Both the position numbers and the translations under genes were made by a program. DNA of 64,000 nucleotides, taken from contig NZ_WPCC01000002.1 in the NCBI RefSeq assembly GCF_009741925.1, positions 62,001 through 126,000 on the forward strand, read 5' to 3'. This document shows, one piece after another, positions 16,044 to 43,265 of the stretch (its first letter is position 1; each line of letters starts with the position of its first letter). This stretch comes from Natronomonas sp. CBA1123. GTDB taxonomy: Archaea > Halobacteriota > Halobacteria > Halobacteriales > Haloarculaceae. The notes below the pieces were generated by a model that had not been told where the DNA came from, made no database searches, and worked only from the letters and a program-made list of their open reading frames with translations.

Positions 16044-17240
16044 ATGGTCGTAGAAATCAGCGACATCGAGACAGTCGCAATAATCGGTAGCGGAGAAATG
16101 GGACGAGGAATCGCCGCCGTGGCCGCGTTGGCTGGCTACGAAACGTACGTCAACGACATCGACGAGTCACAGTTGGCGGAAGCACAAGACAACATCGAGT
16201 GGTCCTACGAGAAATCTGTCGAAAACGGAGCTACGACCGAGACCGAGACAGACGCCGCAATGGAGCGGCTCACTTTCACCACCGACCTCGAGGAGGCAGT
16301 AGGCGACGCGGATTTCGTTACGGAGGCGGCGGTCGAACAACAGTCGGTGAAGGAAGACATCTTTGCCGACCTTGACGAGGTGGCCCCCGAGGATGCCCTC
16401 CTCGCGACGAACACGTCCGGACTCAACATTACCCAACTCGCCGAAACGACTGATCGGCCTGAGCAGGTCATCGGTACTCACTGGTTCAATCCGCCGATGC
16501 TGATGGAATTGGTCGAAGTGATCATGACCGAACACACGCCCGATGACGTGGCTGGAACTGCCGAATCGATAATCGAATCCTTCGATAAAACACCCATCAG
16601 ATGCAAAATTGACATTCCTTCGTTCATCGTAAATCGGCTCATGCGACCGTACGGTGAGGAACCTGCCTGGATGGTGTACCGAGGGGAACACTCCATCAGA
16701 GAAATCGACTCCGCGATGAAATTCAAGGCGAGGTTCCCGATGGGGCCGTTCGAATTGGCGGACTATACTGGTGGTCTCCAGGTTCGTGTCGAGGGCGAAC
16801 AGGACCATCTCGAAGACGACCGCCCAATGTCCTATGACACGGAAGTCTGTCCGATACTCCACCAACTCTACGAAAAAGGACGCTACGGTCGTAAGACCGA
16901 TGCTGGCTATTACGACTACAGCGAGAGCGATGAACCCGATATTCCTGTTGATTCTGGCCAAGGTTTCGATACACTGCTTGTGTGGGCGCCGATTATCAAC
17001 GAAGCCGCAAAGATGGTCGAAAACGGAGTAGCAACAGTTGAGGACATAGATACGGGTGCCAAACTTGGCGGCAACTGGCCAACTGGCCCTCTCGAGAAGT
17101 GCGACGAAGTCGGTGCAGATGTCGTTCTAGAGTGTGTAACCGAAGTCGCCAACCGACACACTGATACGAACAAAATTGCTGAGACGCTACCTTGCGATTT
17201 GCTCGTGGAGAAGGCAAAAAGCGGTGAAACGTTTTACTGA
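16044..17240 (+). CDS. 3-hydroxyacyl-CoA dehydrogenase
   Basis: The 398-residue protein begins with a Rossmann NAD-binding motif (GSGEMGRGIA, residues 15-24). It continues with NTSGLNITQLAE and GTHWFNPPMLMELVEVI, in which His146 is the catalytic base position. PSFIVNRLMRPYGEE starts the helical C-terminal domain, followed by PMGPFELADYTGG. It oxidises 3-hydroxyacyl-CoA to 3-ketoacyl-CoA with NAD. There is no fused hydratase; that activity is provided by the divergent gene. The rather long C-terminus suggests two 3HCDH C-domains, as in bacterial PaaH/FadB2-like forms. Confidence 0.9.
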   Translation: MVVEISDIETVAIIGSGEMGRGIAAVAALAGYETYVNDIDESQLAEAQDNIEWSYEKSVENGATTETETDAAMERLTFTTDLEEAVGDADFVTEAAVEQQSVKEDIFADLDEVAPEDALLATNTSGLNITQLAETTDRPEQVIGTHWFNPPMLMELVEVIMTEHTPDDVAGTAESIIESFDKTPIRCKIDIPSFIVNRLMRPYGEEPAWMVYRGEHSIREIDSAMKFKARFPMGPFELADYTGGLQVRVEGEQDHLEDDRPMSYDTEVCPILHQLYEKGRYGRKTDAGYYDYSESDEPDIPVDSGQGFDTLLVWAPIINEAAKMVENGVATVEDIDTGAKLGGNWPTGPLEKCDEVGADVVLECVTEVANRHTDTNKIAETLPCDLLVEKAKSGETFY

Positions 17241-17820: not shown

Positions 17821-18594
17821 TCAGGCGTGTGCGATGTTGAGCTCCAGCTCGTTTGCGGTTCCGAGTAGAAGCGATGGTAGCTCCTCTTTGAAACGCTCAC
17901 CAGTGAAACGGTGGCTCGGTCCAGAGACGCTGAGACCTCCGATAACACTGCCTTTGGGGCCTTTTACTGGAACTCCAATCGCACGAAGACCGTCAAGATT
18001 TTCTTCACGATTGAATGCGTACCCTCGCTCCCGGATTTGTTCTAATTCGTCGTACAGGGTATCTTGATCGGTTATCGTCTCGTCGGTGATTTTTTCGAAC
18101 GGCGTTTGTTCGATAATGCGGGACACTTTTTCTGGTGGCATCGCTGCGAGTATACTCTTACCAGATGCAGTCGCATGGAGGGGTATTCGTTTGCCGATCC
18201 CGGGATCCGTCCTGACAGCGTGGTCCCCCACTGCCCGATGGAGATAGACAGCTTCGCCATGCTCTTCGACGAGGAACTGGGCTCGTTCGTCCGTCTCCTC
18301 GGCTAACTCCTCGACCTTCTCTTTCGCCAATTGGTACGCCTGCTTTCGGTTCCGGGCATCTTCTCCAAGTTCGAGAAATCGGAGACCGACATGGTATCCT
18401 TCCTCGTTGACGACGTAGCCTCGTTGGTCGAGCGTCGAGAGATGGCGATGAATGGTGCTTTTGGCATAGTCGAGGTCCGACGTAGCCTCCGAGAGAGTAA
18501 CTCCGTCCTTCTGGTGGACGTATTCGAGGATGTCGAACAGCGTTTCTACCGAACCGACCGAATCGACCCCGTTTCCACGCTCTGATTCGCTCAT
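17821..18594 (-). CDS. IclR-family transcriptional regulator
   Basis: The N-terminal winged helix (VETLFDILEYVHQKDGVTLS and LDYAKSTIHRHLSTL, residues about 17-60) precedes an effector-binding IclR domain with RIPLHATASGKSILAAMP and a C-terminal GLRAIGVPV and IGGLSVSGP. At 257 residues it has the normal length. IclR regulators bind small organic acids or their derivatives and control catabolic operons. It is divergent from the MmgE/PrpD gene (95 bp between starts), so it probably controls the operon that begins there. ATG 18594 is the start. Confidence 0.9.
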   Translation of the reverse strand: MSESERGNGVDSVGSVETLFDILEYVHQKDGVTLSEATSDLDYAKSTIHRHLSTLDQRGYVVNEEGYHVGLRFLELGEDARNRKQAYQLAKEKVEELAEETDERAQFLVEEHGEAVYLHRAVGDHAVRTDPGIGKRIPLHATASGKSILAAMPPEKVSRIIEQTPFEKITDETITDQDTLYDELEQIRERGYAFNREENLDGLRAIGVPVKGPKGSVIGGLSVSGPSHRFTGERFKEELPSLLLGTANELELNIAHA

Positions 18595-18689: not shown

Positions 18690-20037
18690 ATGGCATCACC
18701 AGAAGCGACACTGAGCGATTTTATCGCGACGGTAACGTACGAGGAGGTTCCCGAGCGCGCCCGTGAGACCGTTAGACGTGCTTTTCTTGACACAGTCGGC
18801 GTCACATTGGCAGGTGCGCTGGACGACGCCGGTACTACCGTATTTGATATGGATGACATCGACAGCAGCACGGCTAGTGCCTCAACGATACTTGGAATCG
18901 GGTCGGCCCGATCGCCATCCGACCGAGCACTTCATACTGGAACCGCAAGCCACGCACTGGACTACGACGACCTGGCGTGGGCGATGGATGGCCATCCCAG
19001 CGTTACGCTTGTCCCCCCCACTACTCGTACTCGCAGAGGAATCAGACGCCAGCGGCGAAGACCTCGTGACAGCGTTCGCTGCCGGGTTCGAGACCGAATG
19101 CGCACTTGCCGAGCCGATTAGTCCTGACCACTATGAAGATGGGTGGCACGCAACCGCAACGTTCGGAGCACTCGGTGCAGCCGCCGCTTCTGCCTCACTA
19201 CTCAACCTTTCGGCGGCGAAGACCCGCAATGCATTGAACATCGCAGCGTCAACGCCAGCCGGCCTCAAGCGGAACTTCGGATCGATGACCAAACCGCTCC
19301 ACGCAGGACTGGCTGCACGCTCCGGAGTTACCGCTGCACGTCTCGCTGACAGGGGCTTCAGCGCCGACCCCAACGCGTTGAGCGGTGACCGGGGCTTCTG
19401 GGATCTGTACGGCCCTGAGGATCGAACCGAATTCGCGTTCGATGCCGCCGAGTGGGTCCTCGTCAGTCGGGGTATCCACATCAAGTACTATCCCTGCTGT
19501 TACTTCACCCACACGAGTATTGCGGGCACACAGGCGCTGGTTGACGAACACGATATCTCTCCGTCAGAGATCGAGAGCATCCATCTTCAGGTTGCTCAAG
19601 GCGCAGCAGATGCGCTTCATCACTCGGACCCCGACACCGGCTTGGAAGCGAAGTTTTCACTGGAGTACACGGTCGCAAGCGCTGCCGTTCGTGACCGCGT
19701 CGGTCTTGACGCCTTCACCAAATCGTCGATACAGGAGGATGACGTTCAACGCGTTCGAAAACGGGTCGACTACGACGTGGACGACACGCTCCACTACGAC
19801 TCTCACGAGTCCGTCATCACTATCGAGACGGCGGACGGAACCTACGAACGGACCCAAGAGAACCCACCTGGTACCCACGACAATCCCCTTACCGATTCGC
19901 AGCTTCGGGAGAAGTTCGATGAATGCGCGCGCCGCGCCATTTCAGAACCCGCTTCAGACGAGCTCGCAGATGTTCTTATGACACTTGAGGACCAAAATGA
20001 CGTGGCTGCTGCCATCCGAAACGCGACCGAACCATAG
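18690..20037 (+). pseudogene. MmgE/PrpD-family dehydratase/decarboxylase, frameshifted at a C7 run
   Basis: The frame from ATG 18690 encodes a typical MmgE/PrpD N-terminus ending in HALDYDDLAWAMDGHPSVTL. At a run of seven C's (19013-19019) the coding signal moves to the +1 frame, which reads PLLVLAEESDASGEDLVTAF and continues to 20037. With six C's the product would be about 448 residues, the normal length for 2-methylcitrate dehydratase, cis-aconitate decarboxylase and related enzymes. The downstream part includes KYYPCCYFTHTSIAG. It is the first gene after the IclR regulator and precedes an acyl-CoA dehydrogenase. It is either a recent inactivation or a homopolymer sequencing error. Confidence 0.85.
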
Positions 20038-20073: not shown

Positions 20074-21273
20074 ATGGTAGATAGAGACACGGTCCAGCTG
20101 ACGGACCAGCAGCGTCTGGTCAGAGATTCGATTCAGGATATTTGCTCCGACTTTGACCGATCCTACTGGCGAGAGAAGGATAATCAAGGAGAGTATCCTC
20201 ACGAGTTCGCGGCGGCCCTCGCTGACGGTGGATGGTTCGGAGCGCTCCTCCCCGAAAAGTACGGCGGCGCAGGGATGGGAACACAAGAAGTCGTGGTGAT
20301 GATGGAAGAAATCGCCGCATCAGGCGGCGGATTTAGCGCCGCACAGGCAGTCCATGGAGCCATCTATAATTCGGTTCCACTGGTGGAGTATGGGAGTGAA
20401 GAAATGAAAGAAGATCTTCTCCCAAAAGTCGCAAACGGCGAGGAGTCGATTCAGGCCTTCGGACTGACCGAACCGAACGCGGGGTCAGATTCGACCTCTA
20501 TCGAGACACGGGCCGAACGAGACGGCGACGAGTTCGTGATTAACGGCCAGAAAATCTGGATTTCGCGCGTCGATGCGAGCGATTATCTCGTCCTCATGGC
20601 GCGTACGACGCCGAAATCCGAAGTAGAGAAACGAACTAGAGGTCTGACGATGTTCCTTGTCCCGCTTGAGGAAGCATACGAACAGAACGGCCTCGAAATC
20701 GAGCAAATAGACAAGACTGCAAGTGGGCCCGTCCATTCTTACGAGCTCTTTTTCGAAGACCTTCGAATTCCCGAGGAGAACGTCATCGGCGAAGAGGGCA
20801 AAGGGTTTTATCAAATGCTGGATGGCCTCAACGAGGAACGGCTCGCCATCGCAGCGGAGTGCATCGGCCTCGGAGAGGCAGCCATCGAAGCGGGCGTTGA
20901 TTACGCCAACGAGCGGGAGGTTTTCGAAACTGCGATTGGCTCCAACCAAGCGATTCAACACCCGCTTGCCGAAGGACACGCACGTGTGCAGGCCGCCAAA
21001 GGAATGGTGTATAACGCGGCAGACCAAGTTGGCGATGCGACCCAGAAGGACGTGGGCGCACTCGCGAACATGTCAAAATTCCTCGCTGCCGACGCCGCGT
21101 TCCAGGCCGCAGACGCTGCTGTTCAGACGCACGGTGGATTCGGTATTGCTCGCGAATACGACGTCGAACGGTTCTTCCGAGAGGCCCGTCTCACGAGGCT
21201 GGTTCCGATTACACAGGAGCTTGCGTTGAATTACATCGGCGAAAATGTTCTCGGACTTCCACGTTCCTACTAA
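20074..21273 (+). CDS. Acyl-CoA dehydrogenase
   Basis: A 399-residue FAD-dependent acyl-CoA dehydrogenase: LLPEKYGGAGMG near residue 58, the substrate/FAD segment QAFGLTEPNAGSDSTSI, KIWISRVDASDYLVLMART, and the C-terminal HGGFGIAREYDVERFFREAR. It introduces a 2,3-double bond and passes electrons to ETF. It overlaps the following MaoC gene (TAATG), so these enzymes are co-translated: the dehydrogenase makes the enoyl-CoA that the MaoC protein hydrates. TATA-like and leader features are weak; the gene lies 36 bp after the MmgE/PrpD gene. Confidence 0.92.
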   Translation: MVDRDTVQLTDQQRLVRDSIQDICSDFDRSYWREKDNQGEYPHEFAAALADGGWFGALLPEKYGGAGMGTQEVVVMMEEIAASGGGFSAAQAVHGAIYNSVPLVEYGSEEMKEDLLPKVANGEESIQAFGLTEPNAGSDSTSIETRAERDGDEFVINGQKIWISRVDASDYLVLMARTTPKSEVEKRTRGLTMFLVPLEEAYEQNGLEIEQIDKTASGPVHSYELFFEDLRIPEENVIGEEGKGFYQMLDGLNEERLAIAAECIGLGEAAIEAGVDYANEREVFETAIGSNQAIQHPLAEGHARVQAAKGMVYNAADQVGDATQKDVGALANMSKFLAADAAFQAADAAVQTHGGFGIAREYDVERFFREARLTRLVPITQELALNYIGENVLGLPRSY

Positions 21274-21818
21274 TGACTGAGAAAACACTCAAATCTGGAT
21301 GGCAGGGAAGATTCTACGAGGACTTCGAGGTCGGTGACGTCTACAAACATCCCTACGGTCGGACGGTCACCGAAACTGACGACGTCTGGTTTACAAACAT
21401 CACGATGAACACCAATCCGATGCATTTCAATGAGGCGTACGCATCGGAAACCGAATTCGGCGAGCGCCTCGTCAACGGGACGTTTGTGATCGCTCTGGCC
21501 GTCGGAATGAGCGTCATCGACGTGTCGATGAACGCCACAGCAAACCTGGGATACGATAAGGTCCGCCACCACGGCCCCGTCTTCCACGGCGATACTATCT
21601 TTGCAGAATCCGAGGTTATTTCGAAACGAGAGTCCGAGAGCCGCGACCACGTCGGCATGGTTACGACGGAGCTTCGTGCGTACAACGAGGACGATGACCT
21701 CGTCCTATCGCTCGAACGGACACCGATGGTGATTAAACGCGAACACGCCGAGCCATCCGCAGCACAGCCCCCAGGGTGGCCGGAGGATGTCGGTACGCAA
21801 CCGGAGGGAGATGAATGA
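21273..21818 (+). CDS. MaoC-like hotdog enoyl-CoA hydratase
   Basis: This 181-residue single-hotdog protein starts with the WQGRFYEDFEVGDVYKHP leader typical of MaoC dehydratases, then NTNPMHFNEAYA at the hydratase motif, then GYDKVRHHGPVFHGDTIFA. In classic R-hydratases the motif has Asp before x-N-P; here the residue is Asn. As I recall, this is shared with the itaconyl/mesaconyl-CoA hydratase-like branch. It hydrates an enoyl-CoA, plausibly a branched one. It overlaps the dehydrogenase by one base and the CoA-transferase by four, placing it in one operon. Confidence 0.85.
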   Translation: MTEKTLKSGWQGRFYEDFEVGDVYKHPYGRTVTETDDVWFTNITMNTNPMHFNEAYASETEFGERLVNGTFVIALAVGMSVIDVSMNATANLGYDKVRHHGPVFHGDTIFAESEVISKRESESRDHVGMVTTELRAYNEDDDLVLSLERTPMVIKREHAEPSAAQPPGWPEDVGTQPEGDE

Positions 21819-23275
21819 GTGGTGGCGAACGACTCGTCGGCGATTTACCCCAGCGTGATGCGTCGGAGATAGCTGGCGAAATCGCTGCTGACGAAACGCT
21901 ACTCGTCAGCGGGTTCGGGAGTGTGGGATATCCCAAGGAGGTTCCGCTCGCGCTTGCGGACTCAAACCGCGACCTATCTCTTACTGTCATAAGTGGCGGA
22001 AGCGTCGGGAACGAAATCGACAGCGAGCTCGTGAAGGCCGACGCAATTGATCGGCGCTATCCCTACCAAGCTCGCCCTCCCGCCCGGGAGGCCGTCAATA
22101 CGCGAGAGATGGCTTTCAAGGATCGGAATATCAGCACGCTCGGCGACGAAATTCAATACAGCGAAATCACGGATGGCGGTACTGCTGTCGTCGAAGCCCT
22201 TGCGGTGGGCACGGATTGGCTTATTCCCACGACGAGCATCGGCCAGACGCCCGCCTTCGTCGAGAGTGCAGACCGCATCATTGTCGAACTCAATCGCTCG
22301 GTTCCGACGGCTGTCCGGAGATTTCATGATATTTATCGACTCGGTAAGCCGCCCAACAGGAATCCGATTCCGCTCGCAGACCCCGGAGAACGAATCGGGG
22401 ACGAACAGATAGAGTTCGATGCTTCGAAGCTTGCCGGTGTCGTCGAAACCGACCGCCGTGATCAGCCCTACGAGTTCCGCGACCCAACCGACGATGATCG
22501 AACGATTGCATCGAATCTCGGCACATTCCTTGAAAATGAGGTCCGGCGATCACCCCTCTTTGAAGAGTCCCTCCGCATCCAGTTCGGTGTTGGAAGTCTC
22601 GGAAACGCATTGATGAGTGCGCTAGGCGATGCAGATCTCGGCGGCCGTGATTTGATATACTTCGGTGAAGTCATTCAAGACGGCTTGCTCGATCTCCTCG
22701 ACGAGGAGAAGTTGTCAGCTGCAAGCGCTACCTCGCTAGCGTTATCCAGCGAGGGACAAGAGCAATTGTTCAACAATGTCGACCGGTACGCAGAGAATGT
22801 CGTCCTCCGCCCAGGCGACCTCTCCAACAGCCCGACACTCATCAACCGCTTCGGCGTCGTTGCGGTAAACAGCGCGCTTGAAATGGACCTGTTTGGTCAC
22901 GTAAACTCCACCCATCTCAACGGTACCCGCATGATGAACGGTATCGGTGGAAGCGCTGATTTTAATCGCCACTCCCCAGTCGCCGTGCTCGCACTCCCAT
23001 CGACGGCCGCCGATGGCGAAATTTCACGAATTGTTCCGATGGTTCCTCACGTTGACCATACTGAACACGACATTGAAGTGGTCGTTACCGAACAAGGGGT
23101 TGCTGACCTTCGAGGTAAATCCCCTGAAGAAACCGCGACAGCGTTAATTAAAAACTGTGCCCACCCCGACTACCGGGAGAATTTGCAGGAGTACCTCAAC
23201 CGAGGCCTCGACTCCGCTGGGCACGTTCCGCACGACATCGAAACAGCACTCGACTGGCACGTTAATCGAACATGA
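21815..23275 (+). CDS. Acetyl-CoA hydrolase/transferase-family CoA-transferase
   Basis: This 486-residue protein belongs to the class I acetyl-CoA hydrolase/transferase family. VNSALEMDLFGHVNSTH carries the glutamate that forms the CoA thioester, and GIGGSADFNR is the glycine-rich loop. The N-terminal domain has LLVSGFGSVGYPKEVPLAL. It would move CoA from a donor such as succinyl-CoA or acetyl-CoA to the pathway acid, or salvage CoA at the end. Members include acetate:succinate and itaconate CoA-transferases. It overlaps the MaoC gene (ATGA), so the pair may act on the same substrate. Confidence 0.88.
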   Translation: MSGGERLVGDLPQRDASEIAGEIAADETLLVSGFGSVGYPKEVPLALADSNRDLSLTVISGGSVGNEIDSELVKADAIDRRYPYQARPPAREAVNTREMAFKDRNISTLGDEIQYSEITDGGTAVVEALAVGTDWLIPTTSIGQTPAFVESADRIIVELNRSVPTAVRRFHDIYRLGKPPNRNPIPLADPGERIGDEQIEFDASKLAGVVETDRRDQPYEFRDPTDDDRTIASNLGTFLENEVRRSPLFEESLRIQFGVGSLGNALMSALGDADLGGRDLIYFGEVIQDGLLDLLDEEKLSAASATSLALSSEGQEQLFNNVDRYAENVVLRPGDLSNSPTLINRFGVVAVNSALEMDLFGHVNSTHLNGTRMMNGIGGSADFNRHSPVAVLALPSTAADGEISRIVPMVPHVDHTEHDIEVVVTEQGVADLRGKSPEETATALIKNCAHPDYRENLQEYLNRGLDSAGHVPHDIETALDWHVNRT

Positions 23276-23365
23276 TTGAACCAGATACCACCACGAGCCG
23301 CACCGCCACCTGTGTCGCCAACACAGCTGTCCGACGACGCACGAAAACTGCACTGGAGGGTTCCA

Positions 23366-24535
23366 ATGTCTGAATCTGTGTACATTGCGGGGGCCTTCGA
23401 GCATCCGACAAGAGAGGCGCCGAACAAGTCGACGATGCAGCTTCACGCGGATGTCGCCGCGGGTGCACTCGAAGATGCCGGCGTTCCAAAGGAGGCCGTC
23501 GACGGTTACTTTACCGCTGGCGTGCCCGAGATGGAGCACAGCCTGACACCGCTGATGGCTGCCGACTACCTCGGCTTGGATGTCGCGTATGCTGATTCGA
23601 CGGACTACGGCGGATCATCATATATCTCACATGTTGGCCACGCCGCGAGTGCCATCCGGGACGGGAAGTGCGACGTCGCGTTGATAACGCTCGCCGGGCG
23701 TCCGCGTTCGCGTGGGCAGGCTACTGGCTCCGGTGTCCGGAAGCTCAGGACTGTTCAGGACAGCTACGAACGTATCTACGGCACGACGAACGTGACGATG
23801 TACGGCATGGCGGCACGTCGTCACATGGAGGAGTACGGAACCACTAGTGAGCAACTCGCAGAGATACGCGCCGCAGCATCTCACCACGCCCAATACAACG
23901 AACACGCGATGTATCGCGACCCAGTTTCTGTCGAGGACGTCGTCGAGTCCCCTGTCGTTGCGGACCCGCTGCATCTGCTCGATTGTTGTGTCATATCCGA
24001 CGGTGGTGGAGCCCTCCTCGTCATCAGCGAGGACGCTCGTTCCGAACTTGACCGCGAGTGTGTCGAAGTGCTCGGACACGGCGAGGCACCGAAACACCAC
24101 GACGCCGGTCGCATAGACATTACCACGACAGGCGCTGTCGAATCCGGCGAACGAGCTTTCACAGAGGCTGGCCTCGGCCCCGAACACGTCGACTATGCCT
24201 CCATCTACGATTCGTTCACTATCACGGTCTTGGAGGCTATCGAAGATCTCGGCTTCTGTAAAAAAGGGTACGGCGGCACATTCGTTGCGGATGGTGCCCT
24301 ACGTGCAGATGGCGAACTCCCGTTCAACACCGACGGTGGCGGCCTCTGTTCGAACCACCCGGGGAACCGCGGCGGGATGACGAAAGTTATCGAGGCTGTT
24401 CGGCAGCTCCGTGGTGAGACCAGTCCCGAAGTACAGGTCGACGCTGACATCGCACTCGCACACGGAACCGGCGGAAGTATTGCAACGCGCCATGGTGCTG
24501 CGACCGTTATCCTCGGTACGGAGGGGATATCATGA
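23366..24535 (+). CDS. Thiolase-fold protein lacking catalytic cysteines (retro-aldolase-like)
   Basis: The 389-residue protein has the thiolase fold: DCCVISDGGGALLV, VDYASIYDSFTITVLEA and the C-terminal SNHPGNRGGMTKVIEA. Where thiolases have the nucleophilic Cys (ACASG) this protein has DYGGSSYISHVGHA (residues 80-93), and the second Cys is replaced in HGTGGSIATRHG. That pattern is shared with Ltp2-type retro-aldolases that pair with a DUF35 protein in steroid side-chain degradation. A DUF35 gene overlaps its stop. ATG 23366 was chosen because GGAGGG lies just upstream; an earlier in-frame start would add 30 atypical residues. Confidence 0.85.
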   Translation: MSESVYIAGAFEHPTREAPNKSTMQLHADVAAGALEDAGVPKEAVDGYFTAGVPEMEHSLTPLMAADYLGLDVAYADSTDYGGSSYISHVGHAASAIRDGKCDVALITLAGRPRSRGQATGSGVRKLRTVQDSYERIYGTTNVTMYGMAARRHMEEYGTTSEQLAEIRAAASHHAQYNEHAMYRDPVSVEDVVESPVVADPLHLLDCCVISDGGGALLVISEDARSELDRECVEVLGHGEAPKHHDAGRIDITTTGAVESGERAFTEAGLGPEHVDYASIYDSFTITVLEAIEDLGFCKKGYGGTFVADGALRADGELPFNTDGGGLCSNHPGNRGGMTKVIEAVRQLRGETSPEVQVDADIALAHGTGGSIATRHGAATVILGTEGIS

Positions 24536-24942
24536 TGGACGTGTGGGAGCCTCGGCCGTTACCCAACGTCACGCCCGAGAGCGAGCGCTACTGGGAAGCT
24601 GCGAGCAACGACCGGCTCCTACTCTCGAAGTGTCCCGACTGTGACCTCGTTATCCACTATCCTCGAGCACGCTGCCCCGATTGTTTCACCGAGACGGAGT
24701 GGACAGAGGCCAGTGGTGACGGCAGGATATACTCGTACTCTGTCGCTGAACGAATGGAAGGGTGGCCCGAAGCGGATCTTCCGCTCGTCGTTGCCTACGT
24801 CGAGTTAGCTGAAGGACCACGTATGATGACGAACCTTATTGGGTGTGATCCAGACGACATCTCCGTCGGTGATTCTGTCTCCGCGGTGTTCATCTCGACC
24901 GAGGAAGACAATATCGGGATACCCGTCTTCCGTCCGGACTGA
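24532..24942 (+). CDS. DUF35 OB-fold/zinc-ribbon acyl-CoA-associated protein
   Basis: The 136-residue protein has a rubredoxin-like zinc ribbon (CPDCDLVIHYPRARCPDC) and an OB-fold C-terminus (GRIYSYSVAERM, PLVVAYVELAEGPRMMTNL). DUF35 proteins partner with thiolase-fold enzymes: they join thiolase and HMG-CoA synthase in archaea and are required for Ltp2-type aldolase activity in actinobacteria. Its start overlaps the stop of the thiolase-like gene (ATGA), strongly suggesting a complex. An alternative ATG is one codon later. Confidence 0.88.
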   Translation: MMDVWEPRPLPNVTPESERYWEAASNDRLLLSKCPDCDLVIHYPRARCPDCFTETEWTEASGDGRIYSYSVAERMEGWPEADLPLVVAYVELAEGPRMMTNLIGCDPDDISVGDSVSAVFISTEEDNIGIPVFRPD

Positions 24943-25031: not shown

Positions 25032-26666
25032 ATGCTCAACTGGCCTGATGCTACCATCTATCAAGGAATCGCTGACGTCGCAGCCGACAACCAAGAGACG
25101 ACCGCGATGTGGTTCGAGGGGGAGACAACGACGTACGAAGACCTAATCGTCGAGAGCAAGGCGCTCGCACACGGCTTCGCTGACCTAGGCATTGGGCCGG
25201 AGGACACCATTGCCGTGTGGCTGAGCAACCGTCCCGAATGGATCAAAGCTCAACTCGCTGCATCCTACCTCGGTGCGACGATAGTCGCGGTAAATACGCG
25301 TTACCGGACGCACGAACTGGAGTACATGATGTCAGATTCGTCGTGTTCGGTCCTGCTCACCGAAGAGGCCTTCCTCGGAAACCAGTACCTCGAGATGGTA
25401 GCCGATGTCGTCCCCGAAATCGAGACCGCAACCCCCGAAGAGTTCGCGCCGGACTCAGTTCCATCGCTTGAGCACGTCATTGCTCTTGATTCCCACGACG
25501 ACTTTCCGGCTGTGAGGCCGTATGAGGACGTCGAGAAGACCGGTCGAGGGCGGGACGATGTCTCGCCCGCTACAGATGCCGAGACCCCTGCCTGCGTCTT
25601 CTATACGAGTGGCACGACCAGCGACCCGAAAGGCGTCCTTCAGTCCAATCGCTCACTGCTCAATCATTCTCATCAAGTCGGTACCCATCTTGACCTCGGT
25701 ACAGATGACGTCGGCCTCGGCATCCTCCCGTTTTGTGGCATCTGGGGCTACAATATGTTCATGAGCGTTCTCACACACGGCATCCCACAAATCGTGCAAA
25801 CGCACTTCGACGCCGAGCGAACCATCGAAAACGTCGAGAACCATGGCGTCACCTACATGTCTGGACTCGCCACAATGTATCAGCGGCTTATCGAAGACGA
25901 CGCGTTTGCGGAAGACCGCGTCGCCTCGCTCTCGAAGGGCATTATCGGATTCATCAGCATGGGCTACGATGAAGCCGTCTTTGAAGCCATCGAGAATCGC
26001 ACTGGTGTCCCCGTCTGCCAGCCATACGGGCTTTCGGAAGGGAACAGCCAGATATTCATGGGTGACCCGAGCGACCCCCAGGAACTTCGCAAGCGAGTCG
26101 GCGGGCCGATGGTTTTCCCGGACGAGGAGGAGGTGCGTATCGTCGACCCCGAATCCGGGAAGCCACTTCCAGCAGGTGAAGCAGGCGAGATTTGTTTGAA
26201 GGGATTCAACGTGATGAACGAGTATCTCGGAAAGCCCGATAAGACGAACGAGGCCATCGACGACGACGGGTGGTTCCACACCGGAGACCTCGGAGTTCGT
26301 GACGCCGAGAACGACTATCTCTATTATCAATCCCGAATGGACGACGCACTCCGAATCCGAGGGTTCCTCGTCGCACCACGCGACATCGAGACCGTAATCG
26401 ATGAACACGAAGGTGTCTCGCTTTCCCAAGTCGTTGGTGCGCCACATCCCAAACACGGTCAGGTCGCTGTTGCCTTCATTCAGCGCGCCGACGAGACGCT
26501 CACCGCAGAAGAGATTTATGCGTTTCTCGATGACCGCGTCGCAGACTACAAAGAACCAGAAGCCATCGAGTTCGTTGACGAATTTCCGCGGTCTGCTGGC
26601 CCGCACGGAGAGAAGATACAAAAAACCGAACTTCGCGATCGGGTGGCAGATCGATACACCGAATAG
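25032..26666 (+). CDS. AMP-forming acyl-CoA ligase
   Basis: A 544-residue ANL-family enzyme: the ATP-binding P-loop YTSGTTSDPKGVLQ, QPYGLSEGNSQIF, the WFHTGDLG hinge region and the C-terminal lysine in PHGEKIQKTELR. It activates a carboxylic acid to its CoA thioester with ATP. As the last gene of the cluster that begins with MmgE/PrpD, it probably supplies the CoA ester for the dehydrogenase/MaoC/thiolase-like steps. The substrate cannot be read from the sequence. ATG 25032 is the start, 89 bp after the DUF35 gene. Confidence 0.9.
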   Translation: MLNWPDATIYQGIADVAADNQETTAMWFEGETTTYEDLIVESKALAHGFADLGIGPEDTIAVWLSNRPEWIKAQLAASYLGATIVAVNTRYRTHELEYMMSDSSCSVLLTEEAFLGNQYLEMVADVVPEIETATPEEFAPDSVPSLEHVIALDSHDDFPAVRPYEDVEKTGRGRDDVSPATDAETPACVFYTSGTTSDPKGVLQSNRSLLNHSHQVGTHLDLGTDDVGLGILPFCGIWGYNMFMSVLTHGIPQIVQTHFDAERTIENVENHGVTYMSGLATMYQRLIEDDAFAEDRVASLSKGIIGFISMGYDEAVFEAIENRTGVPVCQPYGLSEGNSQIFMGDPSDPQELRKRVGGPMVFPDEEEVRIVDPESGKPLPAGEAGEICLKGFNVMNEYLGKPDKTNEAIDDDGWFHTGDLGVRDAENDYLYYQSRMDDALRIRGFLVAPRDIETVIDEHEGVSLSQVVGAPHPKHGQVAVAFIQRADETLTAEEIYAFLDDRVADYKEPEAIEFVDEFPRSAGPHGEKIQKTELRDRVADRYTE

Positions 26667-30220: not shown

Positions 30221-30434
30221 ATTCCCGATATCATAGCGACCAGAGCAAATAGCTTGTCATTCACAGACATGGTCTGGTTTGGAGGTTACGAGTAGAGCTA
30301 TTCGAAATTTCACGTCTTAATATGCTTCTGCACCCAAATTAGTGGATGTCCTTCAGTTTCAACGGGAGAGTTCGATTTCGCCTGAACCTATTTGAGCGCT
30401 AGATTTATTGCCCAGTCCAAGACAGTCCAAATGG

Positions 30435-31193
30435 ATGAACGGTAACTACGAAACCCAACTTTCGACACACGACGAGGAATCAGTGACCATCCGGGGGAAA
30501 GACCTAACCTCAGAGATAATGGGTGAGTTAGACTTCGGGAGTGCATTCATTCACCTGCTCATTGGAGAGTCGTTGACGGCGAAAGAAGAGCGGCTTGTGA
30601 ATGCAATGCTTTCCTCGCTGATGGTCCACGGAACAACCCCCCACGCGATTGCAACCCGTTTGACGCTCCTTTCAGAACCTAATTCGACCCAAGGAGCCGT
30701 AGCGAGCGGTCTGCTTGGTGTCGGTTCTCGGTTCGCAGGCGCGATGGAACAATGTGCTACGGACCTGCAATCGATTAATTCTGCCGATGACCGCGAGGCG
30801 TCGGTTGCAGAACTGGCAGCAGCCTACCGAGAGAGTGGAAATCGATTTTCGGGAATCGGCCATCCCGAATTTGACCCGATTGACCCCCGTGCTCAGAGAC
30901 TCTTTGAACTCGCCGAAGAAGCCGATGTCGCCGGCGAGCACGTGGCCATCCTCAAAGACTTACAAAGCGAATTTGAAGAGACCACGGGACGAGACCTCCC
31001 GATCAACGTTACTGGGGCCATCGGCGCTCTGTCGTCCGATCTCGGTTTAGAACCCGAAGCAGCTCGCGGATTCGCCATCGTCAGTCGTGCTGCTGGACTC
31101 ATTGCAGAAATCATTGAGGAGAAAGAGTCCCCTATCGCTATGGATGTTTGGCAGTCGGTTGACGATGAAATGACGTACGTCGAAGACCAGTAA
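30435..31193 (+). CDS. Citryl-CoA lyase-like protein (citrate synthase superfamily)
   Basis: This 252-residue protein has the short citrate-synthase-type core: GELDFGSAFIHLLIG, MLSSLMVHGTTPHAIATRL, QGAVASGLLGVGSRFAGAME and GIGHPEFDPIDPRAQRLFEL. The length matches citryl-CoA lyase-like proteins rather than full citrate synthase (about 380). It would cleave or form a C-C bond between a 2-oxo acid and an acyl-CoA. ATG 30435 is preferred because a TATA-like GATTTATTG lies 26-34 bases upstream (leaderless). It stands just before the Liv importer and among acyl-CoA genes. Confidence 0.8.
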   Translation: MNGNYETQLSTHDEESVTIRGKDLTSEIMGELDFGSAFIHLLIGESLTAKEERLVNAMLSSLMVHGTTPHAIATRLTLLSEPNSTQGAVASGLLGVGSRFAGAMEQCATDLQSINSADDREASVAELAAAYRESGNRFSGIGHPEFDPIDPRAQRLFELAEEADVAGEHVAILKDLQSEFEETTGRDLPINVTGAIGALSSDLGLEPEAARGFAIVSRAAGLIAEIIEEKESPIAMDVWQSVDDEMTYVEDQ

Positions 31194-31315: not shown

Positions 31316-31356
31316 GATTTAAACACCACCGGGGTAATGTGAGAGTTGGACTCACA
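31316..31356 (+). promoter_or_regulatory. Promoter with inverted repeat at the transcription start of livK-like gene
   Basis: A TATA-like GATTTAAAC lies at about 31314-31322. TGTGAG (31338-31343) and CTCACA (31351-31356) form a perfect 6-bp inverted repeat ending at the start codon. The repeat covers the expected start of a leaderless mRNA and would suit a repressor operator. Confidence 0.45.
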
Positions 31357-32603
31357 TGCCAGAGTACAAGAGACGGTCGTTTCTAGCCAAGAGTTGTGCG
31401 GCAACAGGAATTGCGGTCGGTTTAGCGGGCTGTATGGGAGATAGCGGTGGGAGCCAGGTTCAGTTGGGAGCCATCAATCCATTGTCGGGGTCGGCAGCTT
31501 TCTTCGGCGAATTAGCGACAGAGGCGCAGAGTGCTTGGGTCGAGAATGTTAACGGCAACGGTGGTCTTGAAATCGGCGGTGAGACCCGAGAGATCAATAT
31601 CGTCGAGTACGACGACGAATCTTCGAATGACCAAGCACGGTCGGCAGCACAGCGCCTCACCACATCGGATAATGTTTCGATGATTCTCTCGTCGTGGCGT
31701 TCCAACGGTGCGATAGCCATTAACGAGATTATCAATAATAACCAGATTCCAACGTTCACACACGGCTTTACCCCGCAGGTAAACACCGATGGAACGTACA
31801 TGATGCGGCTGACGGTTTCGACCGTGATGGACGCCTATCCCGCACTCCAATTCGTCAGTGACAGCGACGACATCGAAAAAATCGGTGTCATCGCCGAGGA
31901 GGGTGACTGGGGAGATGACACATTGGACCTGATGGAGTGGTGGTTCAACGAAGCCGACAATGCTGGCGACTACGAGAACCTCGGTCGGTTCTCGTTCAGC
32001 CAACAGGACTTCTCGTCGTACATCACCAAGGCTCGCAACTCCGATATCGATGCACTGTATGTCCAGACATGGGCATCCGCGATGCAGCGATTCATAGAGC
32101 AGCAGGATAGTGCCGGCCTCAATGACGATATGCCGATTCTGACCGGCCTCGGTGGTGCAGACTACAACTCACTGGGCGAAGTCGGCGGTTCAATGTCCAA
32201 CGTTTATGCCCTCGGCGTATACACACGACTCTCTTACGCCGACGACGATCAGATTGCAGAAACAATCAGCGATGAGGCGCTTTCACAATTCGAGGACTAC
32301 CAATCGATAGAAAACGCGCCTGACCACCCGACGGCTTACAACGTTTACGCCGACGCACAAGCCGCCGAATACGCACTCACGGAGGCCGGCTCCACGAACG
32401 GAGAAGACCTACGCGAAGCTTTGGTCGGAAACGAGATTACGACCATCCTCGGCAACGCGACCATCAACGACCGTGGCCAGCCGTCTATCCCCGGTGCGCT
32501 CATCAAGTTCGACGGCTCGAGCGGCGACGCGGAAATCGATACCGTTGCATGGGACGGCCAGCTCCCACCGATTACGAGTATCCCGCCGGAAACAGATCTC
32601 TGA
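31356..32603 (+). CDS. Liv-type ABC substrate-binding lipoprotein
   Basis: The 415-residue protein begins with a Tat motif (KRRSFLAKS, residues 5-13) and a lipobox LAGC with Cys26, so it is exported folded and lipid-anchored. The mature part is a periplasmic-binding-protein fold of the branched-chain amino acid/HAAT family: GAINPLSGSAAFFGE, DQARSAAQRLTT and TYMMRLTVSTVMDAYPA. Members bind amino acids but also aromatic and aliphatic acids or urea. It is followed directly by the two permeases and two ATPases of one importer. Confidence 0.92.
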   Translation: MPEYKRRSFLAKSCAATGIAVGLAGCMGDSGGSQVQLGAINPLSGSAAFFGELATEAQSAWVENVNGNGGLEIGGETREINIVEYDDESSNDQARSAAQRLTTSDNVSMILSSWRSNGAIAINEIINNNQIPTFTHGFTPQVNTDGTYMMRLTVSTVMDAYPALQFVSDSDDIEKIGVIAEEGDWGDDTLDLMEWWFNEADNAGDYENLGRFSFSQQDFSSYITKARNSDIDALYVQTWASAMQRFIEQQDSAGLNDDMPILTGLGGADYNSLGEVGGSMSNVYALGVYTRLSYADDDQIAETISDEALSQFEDYQSIENAPDHPTAYNVYADAQAAEYALTEAGSTNGEDLREALVGNEITTILGNATINDRGQPSIPGALIKFDGSSGDAEIDTVAWDGQLPPITSIPPETDL

Positions 32604-32610
32604 AACGCAG

Positions 32611-33543
32611 ATGGTCCTACTAGAATCACTTATCAATGGCCTCATTCAGGGGAGTATCTTCGCCGTATTCGCGGCAAGCTTCACCATCATATTTGGGGTG
32701 ATGGATATCCCAAATATGGGCCATGCGGCCCTGTTTGCAGGTGGAGCGTACGTCTTCTACCAGTTAGTAAACCTAACTGGGCTCCCATGGATTGTCGGCT
32801 TAATCGGGGCTGTCCTCGCAATCGCCGTCCTCGGAGCTGTGGTTGAAAAGACCTTGCTGTCCCGACTCTATGGCCGAAAAGAGTCGGAGTACGTCTTCGG
32901 CGTCATTCTCGTGACTATCGGCTTGGCTCGGATTCTCGAACGAGGGTATGCCCAGATTTGGGGTCACGCACCCAAATACATCGAATTAGGTAATCTCCAA
33001 GAGAACAGTGTTCAAGTCTCCGGCACGTCTGTTTCCCATCTTGAGTTAGTTGTAATCGCGTTTGCCGTCGCGAACTTTGCGTTCCTATATTGGCTTATCA
33101 ATTACACAGATACCGGCCTCAGTCTTCAGGCAATCGTCCAGAATCGAGAGCTCGCAATTATGCGTGGTATCAACGTTGACCGAGTGTTCCTCATCGCGTT
33201 CACATTGGGTGCAGCGATGATAGCCGCAGCAGGTGTCCTCAACGCGGCGATGTTCACGCTCGAACCAACACTCGGCTTCTCGCTTCTCATTAAGGCCTTC
33301 ATCATCGTGATTCTCGGTGGCATCGGCCGTGTCATGGGAGCGATGGTCGCCGGTTACGCACTCGGTTTGTACGAAGCCTTCGCAGTGTTGTACCTGTCGT
33401 CGTACTACATTTACGCCTCCGAATTTGCCGTGCTGATTGCCTTCTTCCTGTTGAAGGCGATCGTTCTGAGCGAAGGCGAAGACTCTCTGATTGCAGGATT
33501 GAAAGAACGGGCCACGTCTCTTCGACAGGGGGTGGCCGAATGA
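32611..33543 (+). CDS. livH: Liv-type ABC permease (LivH family)
   Basis: ATG 32611 opens a 310-residue membrane protein with about eight hydrophobic segments. It begins MVLLESLINGLIQGSIFAV and has GVMDIPNMGHAALFAGGAY, the hallmark of LivH proteins. ATVQ-like coupling residues appear around AIVQNRELAIMRGINVDRV. An earlier in-frame start would overlap the binding-protein gene and is unlikely. It overlaps livM by the ATGA motif. Confidence 0.92.
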   Translation: MVLLESLINGLIQGSIFAVFAASFTIIFGVMDIPNMGHAALFAGGAYVFYQLVNLTGLPWIVGLIGAVLAIAVLGAVVEKTLLSRLYGRKESEYVFGVILVTIGLARILERGYAQIWGHAPKYIELGNLQENSVQVSGTSVSHLELVVIAFAVANFAFLYWLINYTDTGLSLQAIVQNRELAIMRGINVDRVFLIAFTLGAAMIAAAGVLNAAMFTLEPTLGFSLLIKAFIIVILGGIGRVMGAMVAGYALGLYEAFAVLYLSSYYIYASEFAVLIAFFLLKAIVLSEGEDSLIAGLKERATSLRQGVAE

Positions 33544-34577
33544 GCAGTTCCGAAGCGACGGCGACGCACGAAGAAGAACTGGACGTCGACCTGCGTAATC
33601 TCGAGTGGACCGAACCGATTCGCGCCGCCGCGTTTGTCCTCGTCGGCGGGCTCGTCGTGGTTCCATTCGTCATCTCGTCAAACTACGTTGGCTATGTTGC
33701 GCTCTTGGTTCTCATGTTCGGCATCATGGCGTCAGGATACAACATTATGCTCGGGTGGCCGAACCTGCTCGTTTTTTGCCCGGCAGCGTTAGCCGTCATC
33801 GGCGGCGTTGTCTCGTCGTTACTGGCGATTCAGATGGGCCTGCCATTCGCGGTGACGCTACTAATCGGTGGTCTCACAGCCGCTATCGTCGGTAGTGCTG
33901 TCGCGGCATCGGCAATCATTATTGGCTCGACCTTCGAAATCGTGATCGCCACGCTGGCCTTCGAGCAAATCGTCTACTATGCCTTCACCAACTGGGACAG
34001 AGTAGGTCCGACCGGCATCTCAGGGATGCCGAATCCGTCGTTGGGCCCTCTCGTCTTCACCAGTCAGGTCGAACAGTACGTGTTCTTATTAGCGGTTCTG
34101 GTTCTTGTAACCTTCATCGTCACTGCGTTTGACCGTTCGCTGCTGGGTACGCTCGCTGTTGCAACCGGTGAAGACGAGGAGTTGCTTCGGTCCATCGGGT
34201 ACAACCCGTCTCGATATAAACTGGTCTCGGTCGTATTGGGTGCCTTCGTACTGGGCATCGGCGGTGCACTCTACGCACACGTCAATGGTCTAGTCACGCC
34301 TGGTGCATTCACGCTCGACCAGACCGTGCTCCTGTTGGTCATCGCCGTCCTCGGGGGACTCAGGACTATCTACGGTCCAATCGTCGGAGCCGTGCTCATG
34401 ATTGGCCTACCGGAAATTGTCCGATCGTTGGGCTTCGGCGATTATCAGCCGTACATAATCGGACTCACTCTGATCCTGGTAATACTGTTCCTCCCGAGTG
34501 GTATCGTCGGCGGGGTCAAAGACTACTTCGGCGACTTCGATAACGGAGGTGTTAGTGCATGGGCATTCTGGAAGTGA
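33540..34577 (+). CDS. livM: Liv-type ABC permease (LivM family)
   Basis: A 345-residue permease with a hydrophilic N-terminus (to about residue 25) and about eight membrane segments. The region NIMLGWPNLLVFCPAALAVI corresponds to the LivM signature after its third helix, and GEDEELLRSIGYNPSRYKLV is the cytoplasmic coupling region. It forms the heterodimeric channel with LivH. Its end overlaps livG by 19 bases. Confidence 0.92.
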   Translation: MSSSEATATHEEELDVDLRNLEWTEPIRAAAFVLVGGLVVVPFVISSNYVGYVALLVLMFGIMASGYNIMLGWPNLLVFCPAALAVIGGVVSSLLAIQMGLPFAVTLLIGGLTAAIVGSAVAASAIIIGSTFEIVIATLAFEQIVYYAFTNWDRVGPTGISGMPNPSLGPLVFTSQVEQYVFLLAVLVLVTFIVTAFDRSLLGTLAVATGEDEELLRSIGYNPSRYKLVSVVLGAFVLGIGGALYAHVNGLVTPGAFTLDQTVLLLVIAVLGGLRTIYGPIVGAVLMIGLPEIVRSLGFGDYQPYIIGLTLILVILFLPSGIVGGVKDYFGDFDNGGVSAWAFWK

Positions 34578-35242
34578 CAGAGTTACGGCGCACCTTCGGT
34601 GGTATCATCGCTCTAGACAGCGTCTCGCTTTCCGTCACGGAGGGTGAAACAACAGTAATAATCGGCGCCAACGGCGCCGGCAAGACGACACTGTTCAACT
34701 GTATCACCGGCTATCATATGCCGGACGATGGGAATGTCGTTTTCGAGGGAACAGATATCTCTCAAACTCCAGACTACAAAGTCGCTCGCATGGGTATCCG
34801 TCGCACCTTCCAAGAGGTCGATGTTTTTGATGAGCTGACCGTCGCCGAGAACATCAGCCTCGGTGCGTTCCAGTCAAATCCTCGTGAGTTGATGGAACTC
34901 CTAGATCTGATGGAGATTCATGACAAACTCGGTGAGTCGCTAACACTGTTCGAGCGCAAACGAGTGGCTCTGGCACTGGCTGCCGACGGCCAACTACTCC
35001 TGCTTGATGAGGTGTTCTCGGGTCTTGACCCGGCCGAGAAGCCGGCGATGCTCGAGTACCTTGATGCGCTTGCGGAAGAAAAGACGCTCATGCTCATCGA
35101 ACACGACATCGAGACCGCGTTCGACTTGGCCGATAACGTTGTCGTTCTCTCGCAGGGCCGAGTCCTCGGTCAAGGAACTCCCGAAGAAATCAAAGAGGAT
35201 GAAGAGGTTCAAGAGAAGTATTTGGGTGAGATGGCACTATGA
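34559..35242 (+). CDS. livG: Liv-type ABC ATPase (LivG family)
   Basis: The 227-residue ATPase has Walker A GANGAGKTTLFN, a Q-loop RRTFQEVDVFDELTV, Walker B LLLLDEVFSGLDP and an H-loop LMLIEHD. The ABC signature normally reads LSxGQ; here it is LTLFERKRVALAL, a divergent version found in some LivG-like proteins. It is slightly shorter than most LivG (about 250). GGAGGT lies eight bases before ATG 34559. It powers the importer with the LivF subunit. Confidence 0.9.
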   Translation: MGILEVTELRRTFGGIIALDSVSLSVTEGETTVIIGANGAGKTTLFNCITGYHMPDDGNVVFEGTDISQTPDYKVARMGIRRTFQEVDVFDELTVAENISLGAFQSNPRELMELLDLMEIHDKLGESLTLFERKRVALALAADGQLLLLDEVFSGLDPAEKPAMLEYLDALAEEKTLMLIEHDIETAFDLADNVVVLSQGRVLGQGTPEEIKEDEEVQEKYLGEMAL

Positions 35243-35949
35243 GCGATGAAATTCTGTCCGTTTCAGATTTGGAAGTGTCCTACGGCGACATGACCGTCCT
35301 TCGGAACGTCGACCTCTCGGTTCCGGAAGGTGGCGTCGTCTCCGTCGTCGGAGCGAACGGCGCCGGGAAAACGACGCTGATGAAAGCAATCTCAGGCGTG
35401 AAAGACCCCGATTCCGGAGAGATTACCTTCCGTGATGAAAACACGGTCGGACTCGATCCTCACGAACTCATCCAGCGCGGCCTTACGTACGTGCCGGAGC
35501 GCCACACAGTGTTTCCGGAAATGACAGTTCTCGAGAATCTTCGAACGGCGATGATCCCGGCCGAAGGTTCGAATTCGGACGTTCTCGAGCAGGTATTCGA
35601 GCTGTTCCCCATCCTCGACGAACGGCGCCAGCAGGATGCCGGCACGATGAGTGGCGGACAACAGCAAATGCTCGCCATCGCACAGGGATTGGTCGTTGAG
35701 CCAGACATCATCCTCCTTGACGAGCCAACGCTCGGACTTGCTCCGAAAATCGTCGAGGACGTTCGTGACACGATTCTGGAAATCAGCGACAACGGCGTCA
35801 CCGTCCTCTTAGTCGACGAGAAAATCCAACTCTCGAAAGAGGTGGCCGAAGACCTGTATCTGATGCGGAAGAGCACGCTTCAGTACCTCGGTGAGCGGGG
35901 AGAGTTCGAGGCGGAGTACGAACGTATCCTTCAGGAAACTATCGAATAA
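35239..35949 (+). CDS. livF: Liv-type ABC ATPase (LivF family)
   Basis: The 236-residue ATPase has Walker A GANGAGKTTLMKA, the signature MSGGQQQMLAIA, Walker B IILLDEPTLGLAP and LLVDEKIQLS at the switch region, where LivF proteins have Glu-Gln-Asn instead of the usual His. It overlaps livG by four bases. With the four preceding genes it completes one importer. Confidence 0.92.
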   Translation: MSDEILSVSDLEVSYGDMTVLRNVDLSVPEGGVVSVVGANGAGKTTLMKAISGVKDPDSGEITFRDENTVGLDPHELIQRGLTYVPERHTVFPEMTVLENLRTAMIPAEGSNSDVLEQVFELFPILDERRQQDAGTMSGGQQQMLAIAQGLVVEPDIILLDEPTLGLAPKIVEDVRDTILEISDNGVTVLLVDEKIQLSKEVAEDLYLMRKSTLQYLGERGEFEAEYERILQETIE

Positions 35950-38049: not shown

Positions 38050-38617
38050 CCCGGCTGCGACTGGACAGACGACGGCAATCTTGTCTCGTTATTGACGGTC
38101 GCTAATCCGGTTTTCAAAGTTATATACTAATCATATATGTCTTCTAATTTAACGGTATAAAAATAATAACGCCTGCTACAAAATGTTAAATATTTAACAT
38201 TTTACTGTCATCTAATCAAAATGAATTATATATTATAAATTTGTCCATTTCACGTTGTAGAATTAGATGATATGGCATACAAAGCGCTTTAATAACTATT
38301 TGAGCCAGTCTAAATCCTTCTCAGATAATTAAATAACATGTCTGTATGCCTGCCTTTACTGTTCAAGGTAATACATAAAATCTAATCGTCATTTGTATCC
38401 CCCCACATTTGATAACGTATTGCTGGCAAATATCAAATTTATGTAATAGTATTAAACCATATATGTTCGAGTCCGTATTCGAGAAGAACGACGCCACAGT
38501 AATTAGCGAATCGGCGAAGCACGGCCACCGGATTTAGAGGAGGGGTATAAAAATACCCAACAGGGGTTGGAAGAACGTTTAGGCAATCAGCAGCAGCAAA
38601 TACTGGCACGCACTCAC
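38009..38617. other. AT-rich spacer before the hydantoinase operon
   Basis: About 600 bp with no gene. From roughly 38100 to 38470 it is far more AT-rich than its surroundings and has no haloarchaeal coding signal. It holds a 24-bp palindrome (38181-38204), a 9-bp inverted repeat TCATCTAAT (38209-38217) / ATTAGATGA (38262-38270), and TATA-like elements including GGTATAAAAATACC at 38545-38558. It may be a promoter/operator region, an insertion scar or a replication-type element. Confidence 0.6.
38181..38204. promoter_or_regulatory. 24-bp perfect palindrome
   Basis: AAAATGTTAAAT (38181-38192) is followed immediately by its exact reverse complement. The site is symmetrical with no spacer, as expected for a dimeric regulator or a cruciform element. 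It lies about 400 bp upstream of hyuA. Confidence 0.7.
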
Positions 38618-43212: not shown

Positions 43213-43265
43213 GAACCACAGAAACATGATTTACACAGATTTGACAACGTTTAATGAGGGATTGT

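Follow-up and report, generated by a model that had tools for sequence, protein, structure and literature searches.

A thiolase-fold protein without a catalytic nucleophile and its DUF35 partner: a candidate retro-aldolase in a haloarchaeal acyl-CoA operon

Introduction

Among the described systems closest to the one treated here are two thiolase-fold aldolases of side-chain degradation, each with a glycine in place of the thiolase nucleophile and each with a DUF35 partner. The first, Ltp2-ChsH2(DUF35) of Thermomonospora curvata (PDB 6OK1), is a steroid C3 side-chain aldolase of the SCP2-thiolase fold, in which Tyr294 is the base, His296 forms the oxyanion hole and Tyr344 is the acid (PMC12329534). 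The second, CtSal-CtShy(DUF35), is a bile-acid C5 side-chain aldolase (PDB 9MYR) that uses Tyr302 and Cys304 and has a glutamine at the position of Tyr344 of Ltp2 (PMC12329534). No report of a thiolase-fold aldolase in archaea was found in the literature, in a search that largely missed subscription journals. Here we describe an operon at 20074-24942 on the (+) strand of a 64,000-nucleotide stretch of the haloarchaeon Natronomonas sp. CBA1123 (hereafter the window), in which an acyl-CoA dehydrogenase (ACAD), a MaoC hydratase and a class I CoA-transferase are followed by a thiolase-fold protein, here called THL, and a DUF35 protein. THL has lost the thiolase nucleophile and is placed with the aldolases by its sequence, and we consider it a candidate retro-aldolase.

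Other known systems bear on how such a protein is to be read. The Haloferax PhaA/BktB ketothiolase has no catalytic cysteine, works with an OB-fold subunit and uses a Ser-His-His triad (PMC7137286), and benzoylsuccinyl-CoA thiolase BbsAB, from a pathway whose CoA esters are of the succinate type, joins a thiolase fold to a DUF35 protein. For the first genes of the operon the nearest model is the gene set (mmgE, mcd, ich, ict, ccl) that has been shown to degrade methylsuccinate and itaconate in Cupriavidus and Pseudomonas, where the last enzyme is citramalyl-CoA lyase (PMC12290011).

Results

A thiolase-fold protein without a nucleophile

The five genes that an initial annotation had named in the operon are all present, with family matches far above chance: ACAD (20074..21273), a single-domain MaoC hydratase (21273..21818), a class I CoA-transferase of the ScpC/YgfH (Cat1) type (21815..23275), THL (23363..24535) and the DUF35 protein (24532..24942). 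ACAD and MaoC overlap by 1 base, MaoC and the CoA-transferase by 4 bases, and THL and DUF35 by 4 bases, while a gap of 87 bases separates the CoA-transferase from THL, counted from the ATG at 23363 (a TTG at 23276 is also a possible start). THL scores 566 bits against NF006010/PRK08142 (cut-off 462) and falls within what is there named 'thiolase domain-containing protein', an uncharacterised family with no assigned reaction.

The initial annotation had held that THL lacks both catalytic cysteines, and for the nucleophile this is borne out. In an alignment of THL with thiolases from the same genome and from the PDB, Gly84 (in T..GGSSY) occupies the nucleophile position, so that neither Cys nor Ser stands at the CxS site, and this glycine is invariant in an alignment of 39 family members. 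The second cysteine had been sought in the wrong place: HGTGGS is the C-terminal NxGG loop, which is Cys-free in the aligned SCP2-type thiolases as well, and the second Cys of those enzymes lies in the HDCF motif. In THL the thiolase HDCF/HDMF/HDAF is replaced by YDSF (Tyr282, Ser284), also invariant in the 39 aligned sequences, and the histidine of the thiolase GHP motif is retained as His332 in an NHP motif. Four other Thiolase_C_1 proteins are encoded in the genome, three with a Cys nucleophile and one with Ser, and with HDCF or HDMF; the Ser-type paralogue (C66), with HDMF and GHP motifs, resembles the PhaA/BktB type. As substitute nucleophiles, Ser85 was rejected because it is not conserved in the family, and Cys329 is unlikely, being nearly invariant yet Asn or Ser in some members. 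Judged by its residues, the reading that THL is no Cys (or Ser) thiolase is supported.

Tree and fold agree on where THL belongs. In a maximum-likelihood tree, from which L025 and one very long branch were left out, nine Cys/Ser thiolases (among them BbsB, present as its C-terminal part only) separate from THL, 4U4E, Sal, Ltp2 and their relatives with support of 100/100, and constraining THL to lie among the thiolases costs 36 log units and is rejected (p-AU 0.002). A Foldseek search with the AlphaFold model of THL (pLDDT 80.9, pTM 0.86) ranks 4U4E first, followed by Sal, a Pyrococcus thiolase and Ltp2 (6ok1, E 6.6e-27). As facts about the sequence, the loss of the nucleophile and the placement with the aldolases are solid.

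The DUF35 protein (zf-ChsH2 and OB_ChsH2_C) has a C4 zinc ribbon (CX2C-X10-CX2C) and an OB fold, and its closest solved relative is the ChsH2-DUF35 of the Ltp2 complex (6ok1 chain B, E 4.4e-22). Its gene adjoins that of THL in nearly all loci examined, and we infer that the two proteins form a complex.

Comparison with described thiolase-fold enzymes

THL resembles Ltp2 in its thiolase fold, in the Gly at the nucleophile position, in a DUF35 partner with a C4 zinc ribbon and in an operon that places an ACAD and a MaoC-type hydratase first. Its Tyr282 aligns with the catalytic base Tyr294 of Ltp2, the tyrosine of a YD.F motif that reads YDHF there. The differences lie in the other active-site residues, where His296 is replaced by Ser284 and Tyr344 by His332 at about 28% identity, and in the surroundings, since the MaoC and ACAD of the window are of a diacid type and there is no igr-type operon with ChsH1/ChsH2. 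Of the original proposal, a retro-aldol system like that of Ltp2, the chemistry thus gains backing from tree, fold, the aldolase tyrosine and the C4 DUF35 partner, and membership of the Ltp2 system is not supported.

CtSal is the nearest characterised match of THL both in phmmer and in Foldseek. The two have in common the fold, the Gly at the nucleophile site, the Tyr of a YD.Y/F motif and a DUF35 partner. Unlike Sal, however, THL has Ser284 for the catalytic Cys304 and His332 for Gln352, and thus neither the YDCY dyad nor the glutamine; and where Shy is a MaoC-DUF35 fusion with a C3H1 zinc site, MaoC and DUF35 are separate proteins here and the zinc site is C4. We therefore rejected filing THL as either Ltp2 or Sal, whose residues differ, and keep both as likenesses: a Tyr/His pair might let THL act in the same manner. 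The closest solved structure, PDB 4U4E, is that of a Sphaerobacter thermophilus protein whose annotation goes no further than putative thiolase. It has the GG, YDSF and HP motifs in common with THL; it differs in reading LSYTHP against LC.NHP, is about 41% identical by structural alignment and belongs to a different clade, whose sister group is haloarchaeal.

Two thiolases with small partners are instructive for what they do not share. PhaA/BktB is likewise a haloarchaeal Cys-less thiolase fold with an OB-fold partner, but it has Ser at the nucleophile site, and the Ser-type paralogue in the genome of the window groups with the Cys thiolases. BbsAB has the thiolase fold and the DUF35 protein, but BbsB carries HDAF and GHP and, as far as its C-terminal part was compared, groups with the thiolases.

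The acyl-CoA genes upstream of THL

The bacterial proteins most closely related to the ACAD (48-50%) are encoded mostly in clusters of ACAD, CoA-transferase, MaoC and CoA ester lyase, and they have in common with it a Glu in the 'AAECIG' helix, which we take to be of the isovaleryl-CoA-dehydrogenase type. In three of the five loci that were read the cluster includes a lyase: those of Paracoccus, Haematobacter and Burkholderia combine ACAD and MaoC with a CoA ester lyase, and add a class I CoA-transferase in the first case and CaiB in the others. The loci of Aminobacter and Deinococcus consist of ACAD, CaiB and MaoC, joined in Deinococcus by MmgE, and no lyase adjoins them. The best NCBIfam match of the MaoC hydratase is the RipB/Ich itaconyl-CoA hydratase model (NF038241), at 172 bits below the cut-off of 340; its motif, N-T-N-P-M-H-F, has the pattern N..P.HF in common with the MaoC proteins of a Thermus cluster made up of ACAD, CaiB, MaoC, class I fumarase and CoA ester lyase. 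The CoA-transferase matches NF053853 (512 bits, cut-off 500) and PDB 2g39 (E 1.8e-110).

Just upstream of ACAD lies a frameshifted MmgE/PrpD-family gene (18690..20037, +), recognised by Pfam and by tblastn, in which intact haloarchaeal homologues match it in two frames. The N-terminal part is in the frame of the ATG at 18690 and the remainder in that of the open reading frame at 18763-20037, and the reading frame changes at seven consecutive C near 19012-19018; either the gene is broken or the assembly is wrong at this place. Divergent from the operon is an IclR-family regulator (17821..18594, -; PF01614/PF09339). In other haloarchaea MmgE-ACAD-MaoC recurs with a class I or class III CoA-transferase, often with IclR, which by our reading of the neighbourhoods also flanks ACAD/MaoC modules there, and in several cases with TRAP/TAXI transporter genes.

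Like the methylsuccinate-itaconate cluster of Cupriavidus and Pseudomonas, the window thus holds MmgE/PrpD, ACAD, MaoC and CoA-transferase genes together. It differs from that cluster in its archaeal host, in the MmgE gene that is frameshifted in the assembly and in the class of its CoA-transferase, which is class I, bacterial Ict being class III. It differs also at the final step, for it has no CitE-type citramalyl-CoA lyase, and THL/DUF35 stand in the lyase slot; HpcH/HpaI gives no match on the window's contig and six on other contigs. On present sequence evidence the ACAD and MaoC look like enzymes of the itaconate/mesaconyl-CoA type and unlike ChsE/ChsH. These two, the CoA-transferase and MmgE each suggest a small dicarboxylate with a branch, which leaves the ring-attached, terpenoid or cyclic substrate once suggested for the operon without support.

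Distribution and linkage

Orthologues of THL occur in 19 of 292 sampled haloarchaeal genomes and those of MaoC in 89. A MaoC orthologue is found in 10 of the 11 genomes with a THL of at least 79% identity (its own included), compared with 79 of the other 281 (p 4e-5, uncorrected for kinship). The two genes lie within 10 kb of each other in four of the 11 genomes that have both, where about 0.08 would be expected, the starting locus being counted and two of the four belonging to the same genus. The closest relative (G039, THL 88%) has ACAD-MaoC-CoA-transferase-SDR-THL-DUF35-ligase-Liv, that is, the same order with an inserted short-chain dehydrogenase/reductase (SDR), and in Halomarina BCD28 the ACAD/MaoC and THL/DUF35 sets are about 9 kb apart. 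The five-gene order looked for in other haloarchaea therefore has a counterpart in one relative and is no haloarchaeal rule, and the idea that the MaoC module of haloarchaea always depends on THL as its lyase was rejected, as most MaoC modules have no THL.

Elsewhere THL mostly keeps different company. Four haloarchaeal THL loci (L037, L038, L039 and L041) hold two-subunit PF01144 CoA-transferase-family proteins, and most of them add an enolase-superfamily protein, an ACAD and a 3-hydroxyacyl-CoA dehydrogenase; they form a second conserved context of THL, likely with a different substrate. In Bacillus and Planococcus (L077, L089, L097), the cluster around THL/DUF35 encodes 3-oxoacid CoA-transferase subunits as well as phosphotriesterase-like proteins, an S15 peptidase and a protein of the metallo-beta-lactamase fold. 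In Bradyrhizobium (L104, L133 and other loci) they are found, in a conserved arrangement, near a large fusion protein of the pyruvate:ferredoxin-oxidoreductase family (POR), together with an MFE-2-type MaoC, an SDR and a DHDPS-family aldolase.

Neighbouring genes

Downstream of the operon lie the genes for an AMP-forming acyl-CoA ligase (25032..26666, +), syntenic in the closest relative (74%), and for a second ligase (28595-30220), and a Liv-type ABC importer of five genes (31356..35949, +), also syntenic there. The ligase and importer that had been reported nearby are thus in place; the SCP2-like protein reported with them is not, PF02036 having no match on the window's contig. Between the second ligase and the importer is a citryl-CoA-lyase-like protein (30408..31193, +) with a citrate-synthase C-terminal fold (NF004868, 269 bits, cut-off 193; PDB 6hxp), and upstream is a 3-hydroxyacyl-CoA dehydrogenase (16044..17240, +) whose orthologue (77-85%) adjoins THL in many haloarchaeal loci. 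A further acyl-CoA gene set lies on the opposite strand downstream of the operon. The window holds another CoA-transferase/aldol-lyase pair at 43254-45590, where a class III CoA-transferase is directly followed by an HMG-CoA-lyase-like (HMGL) protein, and at 38567-42531 a hydantoinase/oxoprolinase A and B pair, similar to one near the MaoC/CoA-transferase genes of Natronorubrum bangense (L136).

Discussion

The absence of a nucleophile, the grouping with aldolases and the retained tyrosine together make retro-aldol chemistry plausible for THL, and we think it rather likely that THL and its DUF35 partner carry out such chemistry of some kind; the most economical reading is that they act on a hydrated acyl-CoA. 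The substrate of the operon is most likely a succinate with a substituent at C2, be it methylsuccinate, itaconate or a close homologue, and we tentatively propose, as a possibility short of a likelihood, that THL/DUF35 cleaves a citramalyl-CoA-like tertiary 3-hydroxyacyl-CoA in a methylsuccinate/itaconate-type pathway. In this pathway the CoA-transferase would charge the diacid from another acyl-CoA, the ACAD would form an enoyl-CoA of the mesaconyl/itaconyl-CoA type, and MaoC would hydrate it to the citramalyl-CoA-like 3-hydroxyacyl-CoA. Hydrated mesaconyl-C4- or itaconyl-CoA is a tertiary alcohol, which is open to retro-aldol cleavage and cannot be oxidised to a ketone. Tyr282 of THL would then deprotonate the 3-hydroxyl group, and scission of the C-C bond would release a 2-oxo acid, which for methylsuccinate would be pyruvate, and leave the acetyl-CoA enolate, to be protonated or stabilised by His332 or by a different group close to the backbone amide of Gly84. 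THL would in this way substitute for the bacterial TIM-barrel citramalyl-CoA lyase.

Several observations weigh against this pathway. The MmgE gene of the window is frameshifted, neither MaoC nor ACAD reaches any equivalog cut-off, and one family member (L052) has Gln for His332. In other haloarchaea the ACAD-MaoC-CoA-transferase module occurs without an adjoining THL/DUF35 or lyase, and in the organism itself there are other candidates for the lyase step, in the citryl-CoA-lyase-like gene of the window and the HpcH/HpaI-type matches of the genome. A 3-hydroxyacyl-CoA dehydrogenase adjoins THL in about nine haloarchaeal loci and an SDR is near it in 23 of 58 bacterial loci, company that suggests a 3-keto substrate; and the precedent of PhaA/BktB means that the loss of Cys and the presence of an OB-fold partner do not by themselves exclude thiolase activity.

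Of the other explanations, the one that survives best, although we hold it to be unlikely, is that THL/DUF35 is a retro-aldolase for some other 3-hydroxyacyl-CoA and that the ACAD-MaoC-CoA-transferase module merely shares its operon. The substrate might be, for example, 3-hydroxyisovaleryl-CoA (giving acetone and acetyl-CoA), 3-hydroxy-3-methylglutaryl-CoA (HMG-CoA), or a longer acyl-CoA with an alkyl or aryl branch, supplied through the Liv importer and the AMP-forming ligase. The catabolic clusters that contain the family in Proteobacteria, Bacillus and Actinobacteria differ widely, so that it is not tied to one diacid, the ligase and Liv genes keep their synteny in the closest relative, and the ACAD glutamate is of the type named above, all of which would suit such a substrate; against it, ACAD, MaoC, CoA-transferase and MmgE jointly match the diacid clusters.

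It is quite unlikely, in our estimate, that THL/DUF35 instead cleaves or makes a 3-ketoacyl-CoA in the manner of a thiolase, with a non-standard nucleophile or with CoA directly, in an R- or S-specific beta-oxidation whose 3-keto substrate an adjoining 3-hydroxyacyl-CoA dehydrogenase or SDR would supply. Such dehydrogenases do adjoin THL, the SDR lying immediately upstream of it in L036, L165 and L166; the GHP histidine persists as His332, and the Haloferax enzyme shows that a ketothiolase can do without Cys (PMC7137286). But the nucleophile position is Gly in 39 of 39 members and the next residue, Ser85, is not conserved, whereas the Ser-type thiolase C66 has its Ser exactly at that position and groups with the Cys thiolases. 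Moreover, the Asn or His of thiolases is Tyr in THL, as in the aldolases, and the alcohol expected as the product of MaoC, if tertiary, would not be open to oxidation.

A shade less likely again is that the diacid module has its lyase in the citryl-CoA-lyase-like protein, or in an HpcH/HpaI-type protein elsewhere in the genome, and that THL/DUF35 has another role. For the lyase step alone the former is a serious rival, because its gene is always found near MaoC: it occurs in three of the 292 haloarchaeal genomes, each time 2-18 kb from the MaoC orthologue, and in one of them (G199) it sits inside the MmgE-ACAD-MaoC-CoA-transferase set. Cleavage of citryl-CoA and of citramalyl-CoA is, besides, one type of reaction. 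Yet the closest relative, with the same operon, has THL/DUF35 and no such gene, and on plasmid 4 of Variovorax WDL1 the citryl-CoA-lyase-like gene adjoins THL, so the two may share a pathway. A steroid or terpenoid substrate was rejected, no P450, ChsH1/ChsH2 or ring-cleavage genes being seen beside the operon.

In its widest form, which we regard as doubtful, our proposal of a retro-aldol pathway would be that a third type of thiolase-fold/DUF35 retro-aldolase, with Tyr-Ser-His against the Tyr-His-Tyr of Ltp2 and the Tyr-Cys-Gln of Sal, took the place of the TIM-barrel citramalyl-CoA lyase in a pathway of archaea for methylsuccinate-like diacids, and that the members of PRK08142 annotated as thiolases in many bacterial catabolic clusters are retro-aldolases. 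The use of methylsuccinate by haloarchaea has been called doubtful (PMC5592240), and the isomerase has been reported almost only from Pseudomonadota (PMC12290011); a haloarchaeal pathway of the methylsuccinate/itaconate type would be new. In hundreds of genomes the proteins of the THL family are called 'thiolase' despite having no nucleophile. If they are retro-aldolases, many catabolic annotations would be wrong, and a class of C-C lyase known to date from steroid and bile-acid breakdown would be far more general.

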